Assembly (NCBI RefSeq): GCF_029893085.1
Contig: NZ_JARXWI010000002.1
Coordinates: 186,001-250,000 of the forward strand
Direction: 5' to 3'
Origin: Parabacteroides sp. PFB2-10
Lineage (GTDB): Bacteria; Bacteroidota; Bacteroidia; Bacteroidales; Tannerellaceae
DNA: 64,000 nt
Each line of letters begins with the position of its first letter. The first letter of the stretch is position 1. This document shows positions 4,613 to 47,953 of this stretch, piece by piece. Both the position numbers and the translations under genes were made by a program. A model generated the notes under the pieces. The model was not told the origin of the DNA. It did no database searches and was given only the letters and a program-made list of their open reading frames with translations.

Positions 4613-5734
4613 TTATTCTTCTTCCAATAGTTCTACCTGGTCGATATAGAGGGTACTGCCGACTGCGCCGCTGAACGCGGCACCGTCCTTACTGGACGAA
4701 AAGACAATCGAGAGGTTATACTTATTGTCTGCCAGTTTGGCCGGATCGATCGTCTTACCGGGCAATACCTCGATAGGCAGATAGAAATAGGTCCATTCGT
4801 CGGTTTCTATTTTATCCGCTTCGGGCATCTGAGCCATCGCCACCAGGTTAGGGCTCTCCTTTACATTTGTTCCATCTAAGTATGTTACCTTGTCATCTGT
4901 TTCATACATAACACAGTAAATGTCGAAATTATCCTTTTTGTCGGGATGTTCTGCCAATTGCTTGTCGGTGTAAACCGCACCGGCTTTGTACTTATAATAC
5001 CCGCATAACGCGATAGGGACAGCACGGGAGAAAGGAAGACCAAAGTGGGTCGCTTTCAGGGCATTCAGGCTTCCGCTGTAGGAACCGATAAACAGGTTGC
5101 CGGCCGCCAAAGGCATCTTAAGCACTTCGCCCGCTTTTCCGGTGGATTGAGTTTCTAATTTCAGGCAGCGTCCAACCATGCCGTCCGGTGAAGAAACGGT
5201 CGGATACTCCTCCGGTGTTTTTCCGGCGGCTACGATCTTGAAGCCTGTATTTCCACTTGCCCATATATTCTGTTCAACCAGTTTTTCCTCTTCAACAGCC
5301 ACCTCATAGAACTCATGATACAGTTCCACGCCGTTCTTGTCGACAGCCGTACGGTAATGTTCGAAGCCAAAGGTAGTTCCCATCTTATCGACCATACAAC
5401 TGATCGTATAGGTCTTTTCCCACTGGCCGTCTTCGGAGGTAACGACAAAGCTTTGCGGCTGGCGATAATCTAAGACTGTTCCGCTGGCAGGCACGATCGT
5501 TGCCCCCGGTGTAAGCACAAAATCAAGCGCCAGGCGGGTAATGTCCGCCTTGGGGCTGAGCATAAGTGTCACGCGGTTGTTCTCGATCTTCGGAGGAGTA
5601 ATCAATAGATCTCCCTCTATCTGGCATGATTCGATGTCGGCCTCGGTATTCAACGCTTCCGGCTGAATACATGAGGTAAGAAAGAAATAGGAAAGGACAA
5701 TGACTGTGGAGAGTAAAATCTTTGTAGCGTTCAT
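4613..5734 (-). CDS. PCMD-domain lipoprotein
   Basis: 373-residue exported lipoprotein. The start MNATKILLSTVIVLSYFFL leads to a lipobox-like TSC, lipidated at the Cys at about residue 22. Residues ~35-115 form a small all-beta domain with a conserved VTSEDGQWEKTYTI segment. The rest, from GFEHYR through the C-terminal LYIDQVELLEE, matches the Bacteroidetes putative carbohydrate metabolism (PCMD) domain, a jelly-roll-like fold. It is encoded ahead of an outer-membrane barrel protein, probably co-transcribed from a -7 box at 5758-5765. Biochemical activity for PCMD is not established; glycan binding is a guess from the fold. Confidence 0.82.
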   Translation of the reverse strand: MNATKILLSTVIVLSYFFLTSCIQPEALNTEADIESCQIEGDLLITPPKIENNRVTLMLSPKADITRLALDFVLTPGATIVPASGTVLDYRQPQSFVVTSEDGQWEKTYTISCMVDKMGTTFGFEHYRTAVDKNGVELYHEFYEVAVEEEKLVEQNIWASGNTGFKIVAAGKTPEEYPTVSSPDGMVGRCLKLETQSTGKAGEVLKMPLAAGNLFIGSYSGSLNALKATHFGLPFSRAVPIALCGYYKYKAGAVYTDKQLAEHPDKKDNFDIYCVMYETDDKVTYLDGTNVKESPNLVAMAQMPEADKIETDEWTYFYLPIEVLPGKTIDPAKLADNKYNLSIVFSSSKDGAAFSGAVGSTLYIDQVELLEEE

Positions 5735-5757: not shown

Positions 5758-5765
5758 CAAAAGTA
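5758..5765 (-). promoter_or_regulatory. -7 box for PCMD lipoprotein operon
   Basis: TACTTTTG on the minus strand, 24 bp upstream of the ATG at 5734. It matches the Bacteroidetes TAnnTTTG consensus. The phased palindrome array begins about 75 bp further upstream. Confidence 0.5.
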
Positions 5766-5840
5766 TGACTTTCTTTTGAACTATACATGAAATCGGTTAT
5801 ACATTTATTGAGGTTGATGGGGTGATCCGATAAACAGGCT

Positions 5841-5948
5841 GGGTTTTAATTCGTTTGACAATTGTCAACGAATTAATTGACAATTGTCAATCAATTAAAC
5901 GATAATTATCAAACAATTGATCGACAATTGTCAAACGAATTAAAACCC
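5841..5948. repeat. Phased palindrome array inside a 26-bp inverted repeat
   Basis: The arms 5841-5866 and 5923-5948 are perfect 26-bp inverted repeats. Between and within them the palindrome GACAATTGTC occurs at 5857, 5879 and 5923 and its variant GATAATTATC at 5901, all exactly 22 bp apart. The tetranucleotide AATT recurs every 11 bp at 5860, 5871, 5882, 5893, 5904, 5915 and 5926. It could be a cooperative operator cluster, intrinsically bent DNA, or both. No bound protein is identifiable from sequence. Confidence 0.9.
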
Positions 5949-6157
5949 GGCATTTTTGTGGAAAAAGTCGCCTTGCAGCCTTTGGAATCTGATTTCAAAT
6001 CCTGTGTCATCTGTGCATCTGTGCCAAAAATACCTTTTCCTATTCTCTTTTTCTCGATCTTATTTTATCTGGATTTAAAAGATCTGTATTATGAGTTCTT
6101 TCTTATGATGGGAACAGAAACATCCCTTGTAGGATTTTTAATTCACAAATTCTTCTT

Positions 6158-6165
6158 TACCTTTG
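6158..6165 (+). promoter_or_regulatory. -7 box for serB
   Basis: TACCTTTG, a match to TAnnTTTG, 73 bp upstream of the serB ATG. No convincing -33 element is visible. Confidence 0.45.
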
Positions 6166-6238: not shown

Positions 6239-7471
6239 ATGGAACAAAACAACGAGATTATCCTTCTCAGTATCAATGGGACAGACCGCCCGGGCGTAAC
6301 CGCCGCTTTAACTGAAATCCTGGCTCAAAACAACGCAGTAATCTTAGATATCGGACAAGCCGATATTCATAACCATTTGTCGTTAGGGATTATGTTTCAG
6401 AGTTCGGAGAAAGATTCCGGGCAGACGCTTAAAGAATTATTGTTTAAAAGCAATGAATTGAATGTCAATATCCGTTTCGATCCGATCTCGCGGGAAGCTT
6501 ACAGCGAATGGGTCGGTATGCAGGGGCGGCATCGCTATATCATCACCATCCTGGGGCGTAAACTAACCGCTCGCCAGATTGCGGCTATTTCGAAGATTGT
6601 AGCCGAACAGGGTATGAATATCGACGATATCAAACGTCTTACGGGACGTATCCCGTTGGAAGAGAGTGAACGTACGCCGAAGGCCAGCGTAGAGTTCTCC
6701 GTACGTGGCACGCCGAATGACAAGGAAAAGATGAAAGCCGACTTTATGCGCTTATCGGCTCAGTTGGAAATGGATATCTCGTTCCAGGAAGACAGTATGT
6801 TTCGCCGTATGCGTCGCCTGATCTGTTTCGATATGGACTCCACCCTGATCGATACGGAGGTGATCGATGAACTGGCCATACGTGCCGGGGTAGGGGACAG
6901 GGTGAAAGCGATAACGGAATCGGCTATGCGCGGGGAGATCGATTTCTCGGAAAGTTTCCGCCAGCGATGCGCCCTGTTGAAAGGGCTGGATGTCTCTGTG
7001 ATGCAGGAAATAGCGGAGAATTTGCCAATCACCGAAGGGGTAGACCGTCTGATGTCGGTCTTGAAAAAGATCGGTTTTAAGATTGCCATTCTCTCGGGGG
7101 GATTCACCTATTTCGGGAATTACCTGAAGAACAAATACAATATTGATTATGTCTATGCGAATGAACTGGAGGTAGTAGGTGGTAAACTAACCGGCAACTA
7201 CGTAGGCGATATAGTCGACGGAAAGCGCAAGGCTGAATTGCTCCGCTTGATTGCACAGGTTGAAAATGTGGATATCCGCCAGACCGTAGCGGTGGGTGAC
7301 GGGGCGAACGACCTGCCTATGATCAGTATTGCCGGCTTGGGTATCGCGTTCCATGCCAAACCAAAGGTGAAAGCGACGGCCAAACAGTCGATCTCGACTA
7401 TCGGGCTCGACGGAATCCTCTATTTCCTTGGCTATAAAGACTCTTATCTGGAAGAGCAGGAGTTGTTTTGA
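6239..7471 (+). CDS. serB: Phosphoserine phosphatase SerB with N-terminal ACT domains
   Basis: Last step of serine synthesis: O-phosphoserine + H2O to serine + phosphate. 410 residues. Residues 1-~185 contain two ACT-type modules, starting with LLSINGTDRPGVTAALTEIL, the usual amino-acid-binding regulatory region of long SerB proteins. The C-terminal HAD domain has the catalytic FDMDSTLID (nucleophile Asp198, acid/base Asp200), the E-x-x-x-x-R-A-G cap entry, SGGF motif II, and GDGANDLPM as metal-binding motif III/IV. Thus it is complete. It starts at the first ATG after the leader, and the Dabb gene follows 36 bp downstream on the same strand. Confidence 0.96.
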   Translation: MEQNNEIILLSINGTDRPGVTAALTEILAQNNAVILDIGQADIHNHLSLGIMFQSSEKDSGQTLKELLFKSNELNVNIRFDPISREAYSEWVGMQGRHRYIITILGRKLTARQIAAISKIVAEQGMNIDDIKRLTGRIPLEESERTPKASVEFSVRGTPNDKEKMKADFMRLSAQLEMDISFQEDSMFRRMRRLICFDMDSTLIDTEVIDELAIRAGVGDRVKAITESAMRGEIDFSESFRQRCALLKGLDVSVMQEIAENLPITEGVDRLMSVLKKIGFKIAILSGGFTYFGNYLKNKYNIDYVYANELEVVGGKLTGNYVGDIVDGKRKAELLRLIAQVENVDIRQTVAVGDGANDLPMISIAGLGIAFHAKPKVKATAKQSISTIGLDGILYFLGYKDSYLEEQELF

Positions 7472-46665: not shown

Positions 46666-47670
46666 TTAATTAGTGCTTCCGACAATTTCAGCCTGAATAG
46701 CCGCCGCCTTTTCAATGGCTTCCCGGCTTCGTGTTATTTCATAAAGCTCCGGCCGTGGTACTTTTATCTCTGTCCCTATCGGGATATTATTCGGATTGGT
46801 AATATGATCTTTATTATAATCATACAGATAGACCCAGAAGAACTTATGTCCATAATGCTCCAGCGCTATCATAGTCAATGTTAGACCTGGCTCTATAACC
46901 ACACGGGCAATTACCTCTTCTTCCTGCTTTTCTTTTACAGGCGCTATTACTGTTTCCGAATCTTCGATCTCTTCCGTTGGTTCATTCTCTTCCGGCATTT
47001 CTGTCGGAACGACCTCCGGCTGAGGGGCAACGGCCGCTACCGGCAACGTTTCCTGTACAGAGGGTGAGTCTATCAAGAAATGATAAACAAATGCTCCGGC
47101 AAGAACCAAAAATATCAACGTGATGAATAAAACCCAATTAAAACGTTTATTTCGGGGCTTCTCCGGCTCCGTCACGTCAGTTTCCTGAGTGGGCTCCGCT
47201 ACTATTGGTTCAGGTTCTATTTGTTCCGGTACGGTCGGTTCGGGCTCTTCCGGTTCCTCCGACACTGTTATTTCAACTTCTTCCACCACTTCCGGTTCCT
47301 GAGAGATTTCCTCCTCTTTTTTCTCTTCCGATTCAATCAATGCAGATTCATCCTCCACTTCTACGCTCTCGAAAAAGGAAAAAGGAGCATTAACCAGTTC
47401 TTTCAGTTCTTTATCCGGTGTAAAGGTCAACTTAAAATGTCCCGGAATGACAAACCGCTCTCCGGTATTTACATGTATACTTTCCCGGTCTTCTACTTCG
47501 ATGATCTTGAAAGTCCCGATCTCTTTGATTTTAACTATCCTGTCTTCAAAAACGCCATGCGAGACAAGCGAAACAAATTCTTTCAGAAATTCTTCCGTTT
47601 CTTTTTTCTTCCGTCCGGTTTTCTCTGCCAACAAACCGGCCAGATCTGAGATAGATAGCCGGTTATTCAT
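46666..47670 (-). CDS. HU-like domain fused to a membrane helix and LysM-like domain
   Basis: 334 residues with an unusual order. Residues 1-~90 are an HU/IHF-type fold (LSISDLAGLLAEKTGRKKKETEEFLKEFVSLVSHGVFEDRIVKIKEIGTFKIIEVEDRESIHVNTGERFVIPGHFKLTFTPDKELKELV). Residues ~100-165 are Glu/Pro-rich. A membrane helix follows (FNWVLFITLIFLVLAGAFVYHFLI, about 173-196), then a second acidic linker, and a LysM-like segment (VVIEPGLTLTMIALEHYGHKFFWVYLYDYNKDHITNPNNIPIGTEIKVP, about 255-305). The HU part would be cytoplasmic and the LysM part periplasmic. Overlaps the 3' end of a normal HU gene by 8 bp. A role in tethering DNA to the envelope is an inference. Confidence 0.85.
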   Translation of the reverse strand: MNNRLSISDLAGLLAEKTGRKKKETEEFLKEFVSLVSHGVFEDRIVKIKEIGTFKIIEVEDRESIHVNTGERFVIPGHFKLTFTPDKELKELVNAPFSFFESVEVEDESALIESEEKKEEEISQEPEVVEEVEITVSEEPEEPEPTVPEQIEPEPIVAEPTQETDVTEPEKPRNKRFNWVLFITLIFLVLAGAFVYHFLIDSPSVQETLPVAAVAPQPEVVPTEMPEENEPTEEIEDSETVIAPVKEKQEEEVIARVVIEPGLTLTMIALEHYGHKFFWVYLYDYNKDHITNPNNIPIGTEIKVPRPELYEITRSREAIEKAAAIQAEIVGSTN

Positions 47671-47953
47671 CGCCTTTCAATTCTTTTAGTTTATTTTTCA
47701 TGGTCTTACCCGATTTGAAAACGGGAACCAATTTGGGGGGCACCAGATAACGCTTGCCTGTAGCCGGGTTCACGGTGATGCGCTCGGCCTTCTTCTTTAC
47801 TTCAAATTGCCCAAATCCCTGGAAGTAAATAGAATCACCACCAACTAACGAATCGCCCACCACAGCGCTCAAAGCCGACATCATATCAGCCACTTCCTGT
47901 TGTGTCCATTCGAGGCGCTTGGATAATTCTATGACAAGCTCTTTGTTTTTCAT
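47663..47953 (-). CDS. HU-family DNA-binding protein
   Basis: 96 residues. LVIELSKRLEWTQQEVADMMSALSAVVGDSLVGGDSIYFQGFGQFEVKKKAERITVNPATGKRYLVPPKLVPVFKSGKTMKNKL is a full HU/IHF fold, with the beta-arm sequence NPATGKRY (the usual R-N-P-x-T-G with the first Arg shifted) that intercalates DNA with a Pro. A nucleoid-associated protein. Translationally coupled by an 8-bp overlap to the HU-TM-LysM gene downstream. Confidence 0.93.
   Translation of the reverse strand: MKNKELVIELSKRLEWTQQEVADMMSALSAVVGDSLVGGDSIYFQGFGQFEVKKKAERITVNPATGKRYLVPPKLVPVFKSGKTMKNKLKELKGDE

Follow-up and report, generated by a model that had tools for sequence, protein, structure and literature searches.

The region between a lipoprotein-like gene and the divergently oriented serB gene of Parabacteroides sp. 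PFB2-10 carries four GAYAATTRTC palindromes at an exact 22-bp pitch, set within a perfect 26-bp inverted repeat. We ask whether this array serves the two genes beside it or belongs to something larger. The original prediction had read it as an operator set. The features concerned, all located in the window (the whole 64,000-nucleotide stretch of DNA that was analysed), are the following.

4613..5734, minus strand: lipoprotein-like ORF of 373 aa, neighbour
5758..5765, minus strand: lipoprotein -7 box, CAAAAGTA / TACTTTTG on the minus strand, directed away from the array; neighbour, outside the element
5838..5951, no strand assigned: whole dispersed element, a C7-type copy (from the fold and from aligning the 11 PFB2-10 copies with one from the sister species)
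5841..5866, plus strand: left arm of the perfect 26-bp inverted repeat, including palindrome 1 (window letters)
5857..5866, no strand assigned: palindrome 1, GACAATTGTC (window letters)
5879..5888, no strand assigned: palindrome 2, GACAATTGTC (window letters)
5901..5910, no strand assigned: palindrome 3, GATAATTATC (window letters)
5923..5932, no strand assigned: palindrome 4, GACAATTGTC (window letters)
5923..5948, minus strand: right arm of the perfect 26-bp inverted repeat (window letters)
6158..6165, plus strand: serB -7 box, TACCTTTG, directed away from the array; neighbour, outside the element
6239..7471, plus strand: serB, 410 aa, neighbour

Rereading the letters bore out the geometry first described, namely the four palindromes, their 22-bp pitch, the AATT series at 11-bp steps and the 26-bp inverted repeats. 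The seven AATT of the series lie at 5860, 5871, 5882, 5893, 5904, 5915 and 5926; additional ones occur at 5848, 5875 and 5938. Pairing between the arms continues imperfectly beyond the 26 bp, to about 5838/5951, and the element as a whole consists of GC-rich ends (GCTGGG/CCCGGC), an A+T-rich stem and the 4 x 22-bp array. Tandem Repeats Finder independently detected 3.9 copies of period 22 at 5857-5943. A scan of the whole window for lag-22 identity of at least 0.6 over 66 bp returned this array as the sole such stretch.

A regulator bound at the array might control the lipoprotein gene, serB or both. The array sits in their divergent region, about 75 bp upstream of the lipoprotein -7 box as originally stated, and repeated phased palindromes would suit a regulator. 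However, none of the 14 relatives' loci that we read has an array upstream of serB, and the syntenic serB locus of a sister species (G004, with a SerB 99% identical) is without one. The same element is found at ten other loci in the genome, all 11 copies adjoining unrelated genes, and the dispersed copies show no phase lock to neighbouring promoters: outward -7 boxes lie mostly 37-122 bp outside the arrays, and 38 neighbouring boxes are spread over all 11 phases with none preferred. We consider control of this gene pair very improbable, and the array's place next to these genes is probably incidental. The part of the operator reading that stands is that phased palindromes fit a multi-site protein-binding platform; its tie to the lipoprotein/serB pair does not. 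Like the original prediction, we recognised no known operator set that resembles the array.

A DNA search of the PFB2-10 genome (an assembly of 36 contigs) gave 11 elements on nine contigs. Their alignment shows about 125 bp in common, with ends AAAATCGCCGGGTTT..AAACCCGGCGATTTT and unrelated flanks. The genome-wide search for phased cores that had been suggested for this array, requiring two cores with an 8-16 bp gap, produced 21 matches in the same genome and 0 in the reversed control. The genes around the dispersed copies stand in divergent, tandem and convergent arrangements. In relatives the same architecture recurs with other sequences: GAY-N4-RTC cores keep the 22-bp pitch, and the 12-bp spacer is itself near-palindromic and has a genome-specific sequence. 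The number of units per element is nearly always four. Ends of one family (the C21 type, see below) are sharp, GGAGAATTCTATCG..CGATAGAATTCTCC, and the outer ends, inverted and GC-rich, are alike in several array families. Named records matched by the array pattern were nearly all Parabacteroides, with one Pedobacter and one 'Prevotella' MAG in addition. Arrays are dispersed in Phocaeicola massiliensis too (nine records) and weakly so in B. finegoldii.

Several variants of the architecture were seen along the way. In Pedobacter sp. KBW06, short arrays of three GACAATTGTC units with a 22-bp pitch lie at two neighbouring places (L073 5649-5702 and 6520-6573; L163). MAG RUG759 (L058, L068, L079, L084, L094, L120) has five- and six-unit arrays of the CGTGACAATTGTCACG type, sometimes two close by, and complete copies in the CAMTPG01 MAG (L054, L056, L074, L128, L138) consist of six units, not four, with a direct-repeat-like unit AAGRCCTT. 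In the arrays of genome G012 (e.g. C12:23452-23527, C28:14475, C67:269) the four N4 cores are often crossed-complementary, 1 with 3 and 2 with 4; kissing hairpins were considered on this ground and dropped, as the pattern is absent in other genomes. Resemblances to DnaA and FNR boxes (TTATCAACA; TTGATNNNNATCAA) were rejected because the spacers vary among genomes. One aldo-keto reductase gene has an array about 160-200 bp upstream both in PFB2-10 (L206) and in genome G001 (L229), the two arrays belonging to different sequence families. Beside one array a second, unrelated dispersed repeat, GCGTCGAAGACGC..GTTGATAAACCCCATGT, is present in both PFB2-10 (flank of L208) and G004 (G004:C1:85125-85219), and G004 has many copies of it.

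Which protein might use such arrays? An all-against-all comparison of the genes near 116 distinct arrays revealed HU-like genes starting 26-93 bp from an array in five genomes, and the recurrent family in this promoter-adjacent position is HU-HIG. Genes for ECF sigma factors also recur near arrays; they are abundant anyway and were rejected as partners. The partner proteins have about 200 aa and belong to the HU-HIG clade (PF18291) of the HU/IHF superfamily, five array-adjacent proteins scoring 68-110 bits against a cut-off of 26.2. Pfam assigns them solely HU-HIG and HU-type domains plus a weak C-terminal DeoR-type HTH. The C-terminal third was modelled as a winged helix with a pLDDT of about 75-90, while the HU half of the model, built with only 4 sequences in the input, is poor (pLDDT 35-50). 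Foldseek matched the C-terminal part to winged helices of MarR, Z-alpha and AspA, several of them over about 60 residues at 1.5-3 angstrom rmsd, with E-values of at least 0.006. We refer to these HU-HIG proteins with a winged helix as HU-wHTH. A PDB sequence search with the HU-wHTH protein gave no match, and the viral contigs searched held no HU-wHTH relative. The HU-HIG clade, reportedly described by Burroughs and colleagues in 2017, is said to have undergone lineage-specific expansion in Bacteroidetes and to have been proposed to recognise mobile elements. A search of openly accessible literature found no paper that assigns any HU-HIG protein a DNA target or function, and none that links such proteins to arrays, a leader position or dispersed array families. 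Within the window itself, at ~47650-47950 on the minus strand, an ordinary HU protein is encoded (MKNKELVIELSKRLEWTQQEVADMMSALSAV..., about 95 aa); it has a weak PF18291 match, as judged from its translation only.

We then selected HU-wHTH genes by protein similarity alone and read their upstream regions afterwards. The 65 genes come mostly from Tannerellaceae, with Bacteroides and Phocaeicola in addition. The best repeat lag in their leaders was 22 in 58 of the 65 and 21 in 4, and 59 leaders exceeded the maximum of 400 control upstream regions, in which best lags were scattered over 14-31. Nearly every HU-wHTH relative has an upstream array of about four units in a sequence of its own; a minority of leaders (L282, L307, L330) are without a clear array. 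Scored for palindromes centred every 11 bp, 41 of 58 genes lay above the 99th percentile of the controls, compared with 1-3 of 58 for half-pitches of 8, 9, 10, 12, 13 and 14. Conservation, proposed as a check on the original prediction, was found in one place and not in the other: the 22-bp pitch is strongly kept upstream of HU-wHTH genes, and the array at the serB locus is not kept. Among named organisms, leader arrays are also present in Bacteroides finegoldii, Bacteroides sp. CACC 737 and Phocaeicola massiliensis, and in Parabacteroides distasonis one gene has a pitch of 21 and one a pitch of 22. In genome G092, of another Bacteroidales family, 14 HU-HIG genes were read: of those lacking the winged helix, 11 of 12 were at background and one reached 0.69, and the two winged-helix members have 22-bp direct repeats that are visible by eye and not by palindrome score. 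An ordinary HU gene of PFB2-10 has no upstream array and a background score.

Many leader arrays begin at a set distance from the promoter of the gene that they precede, as would be expected of an autoregulatory operator. A Bacteroidetes -7 box, TAnnTTTG, stands just before the array, and in 14 of the 29 array-bearing leaders with such a box the first palindrome centre is exactly 34 bp away. The phase modulo 11 from the box is the same in 16 of the 29 (2.6 expected; p ~5e-10). Because the box directly precedes it, the array lies in the initially transcribed leader, and a protein bound there could block its own promoter.

A transcribed array might instead act as RNA, in the form of a terminator, an attenuator or a processing site. 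The window array folds very stably as a single strand (-38.4 kcal/mol against -11.0 +/- 2.3 for shuffles, 12 standard deviations better), and the HU-wHTH arrays are within transcribed leaders. However, mismatches in the sense orientation of the leaders are about equally G-T and A-C (83 vs 72), and this lack of a G-T excess points to DNA as the target and away from an RNA structure. The occurrence of dispersed copies in all three gene contexts also speaks against a hairpin function, as does the fact that all Rfam matches fell below the gathering score. We regard an RNA role as very improbable. No Rfam identity was accepted, since the matches were to eukaryotic miRNA models only, i.e. to 'long hairpin'. 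Termination was considered separately on account of GC-rich ends and T-runs in some PFB2-10 copies; in genome G022 the T and A runs are on the wrong sides, and the presence of copies in all gene orientations also counts against it.

The PFB2-10 genome has four HU-wHTH genes, which we call C7, C11, C21 and C28. Compared with the four leaders, the window array is 91% identical over 100 bp to that of the C7 gene (G000:C7:107423-108031) and has no match of note to the C11, C21 or C28 leader arrays. Copies of the four private array types add up to about 50 in this genome, with 11 of the C7 type, 12 of C11, 24 of C21 and 3 of C28. Genomes G001 and G022 each have two GAY-N4-RTC subfamilies and, preceded by each subfamily, one HU-wHTH gene. 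Array sequences differ between paralogues, and those of orthologues are alike: the mean array alignment score rises from about 11 at <35% protein identity to 55 at >70%, in a comparison where related sequences are not independent.

Copy number was also compared with gene presence. G004 has kept the orthologue of HU-C11 and has about 14 arrays of the C11 type; it is without the C7, C21 and C28 genes, and its full arrays number 1 of the C7 type, 0 of C21 and 1 of C28. Over all genomes covered by both searches, GAY-N4-RTC arrays co-occur with a gene having such a leader (8/3/2/10 in a table counted by hand, p = 0.012), with exceptions that fall mostly in incomplete genomes (G003, G011, G020). The link between copy number and gene presence rests mainly on the one sister-species pair.

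On this combined evidence, we think it likely that the window array is a dispersed copy of the cognate, predicted binding array of the C7 HU-wHTH protein, which is encoded elsewhere in the genome. The C7 protein would bind its leader array through the winged helix, which would read half sites spaced 11 bp apart, and the HU body would bend or wrap the array DNA. From the leader array directly behind the promoter the protein would repress its own transcription. Each paralogue would have diverged jointly with its own array sequence, and copies of the array have spread into intergenic regions as units of 110-140 bp. Dispersed copies would then be extra binding platforms, neutral or architectural, and not operators tuned to one neighbour; they may also act as homology blocks for chromosome rearrangement.

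Alternatively, the element could be an ordinary MITE with GC-rich terminal repeats that an IS transposase uses to move it, the leader arrays of HU-wHTH genes being captured copies. Sharp ends, unrelated flanks and outer ends that are alike in several families agree with this. It leaves unexplained, however, why HU-wHTH leaders across Bacteroidales families have paralogue-specific arrays that are phased to the promoter at a 22-bp pitch, and why array families and paralogues pair one to one; in addition, no clear target-site duplication was seen at the dispersed copies. We judge this reading unlikely. Under the cognate-array explanation that we prefer, the copies could still be moved by an unrelated transposase via the GC-rich ends.

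The surroundings of the dispersed copies bear on why they persist. In PFB2-10, none of 88 array sides has a -7 box directed into the array within 50 bp. With no inward box and no phase lock, dispersed copies are built unlike the leader copies, and the copy between the lipoprotein gene and serB is typical of them. The pattern fits either an architectural site or an element that is tolerated where it lies outside promoters. The flanks of 9 of 11 tested element sites are not neighbours in G004, compared with 0 of 6 informative control gaps broken (1 of 7 when one with a missing side is counted; p = 0.002 to 0.013), the control gaps being clustered in the window. In one case a 74-kb segment is bracketed by two directly oriented C21 arrays (L358/L360); their outer flanks are adjacent in G004 and their inner flanks lie together on another contig, as expected if the segment between the two copies had moved. 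Syntenic loci of G004 at serB, pfkA and the aldo-keto reductase gene are without the array, and most other sites are synteny breaks. In the search for empty sites against G004 no piece spans a junction, and no clean empty site was seen. These comparisons (L352-L382 and L194-L216 against G004) place dispersed arrays at synteny breakpoints.

Selection might also place the copies as chromosome-organising sites, comparable to matS for MatP, at which HU-wHTH proteins would bridge or bend the nucleoid. In favour of this, HU belongs to the nucleoid proteins, the dispersed intergenic copies are similar in number in several species, and the absence of inward promoters is in keeping with such a role; against it, copy positions are not kept between sister species. 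We see this as possible though doubtful. It is compatible with the cognate-array explanation and competes with it only on the reason why copies persist.

Whether the same holds widely among Bacteroidales is, in our estimate, an even question. Each HU-wHTH paralogue would there possess a private 4 x 22-bp array that serves autoregulation and is multiplied over the genome, in a REP/RAYT-like manner with a DNA-bending protein, the copies being binding platforms and rearrangement hot spots. HU-HIG proteins are expanded in gut Bacteroidales, and the arrays provide predicted binding sites for dozens of paralogues, so that the role of the expanded HU paralogues becomes directly testable. If true, the proposal would account for a class of interspersed repeats that has not been described, show a route by which paralogous DNA-binding proteins and their sites diverge jointly, and suggest one cause of the rearrangement of Parabacteroides chromosomes.

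Among known systems, BrickBuilt is a minisatellite MITE of Porphyromonas gingivalis with 23-nt tandem repeats and ends that match IS5-family elements (PMC4596501). It shares with the present arrays the Bacteroidales host, intergenic dispersed location, near-equal repeat length, flanking segments and terminal inverted repeats. However, its copies differ in repeat number, one having 18 full repeats, whereas the arrays here almost always have four units, the ends differ, and neither palindromes nor a protein partner are described for it, which sets the two apart by description. REP elements with their RAYT tyrosine transposases are palindromic, intergenic, species-specific repeats, each tied to an adjacent protein gene (PMC2817692). 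Here, too, repeat and protein appear to diverge together, the partner gene is adjacent to its cognate repeat by one leader array, and array abundance tracks the presence of the gene (with exceptions in the wider set). By contrast, Pfam finds no Y1 tyrosine transposase or other transposase domain in the partner, which is an HU-HIG protein with a winged helix, and in place of two flanking inverted REPs there is a phased 4 x 22-bp array in the leader behind the promoter. As the proposed system lacks the transposase by which REP/RAYT is defined and is unlikely to be an ordinary MITE, we consider it new in kind. MatP with matS, Noc and SlmA are site-specific nucleoid proteins whose short palindromic sites are dispersed, single and of one family per genome. 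The arrays resemble these in combining one DNA-binding protein, putative here, with dispersed palindromic sites, and differ from them in being phased, in forming several families per genome and in the rapid turnover of their positions.
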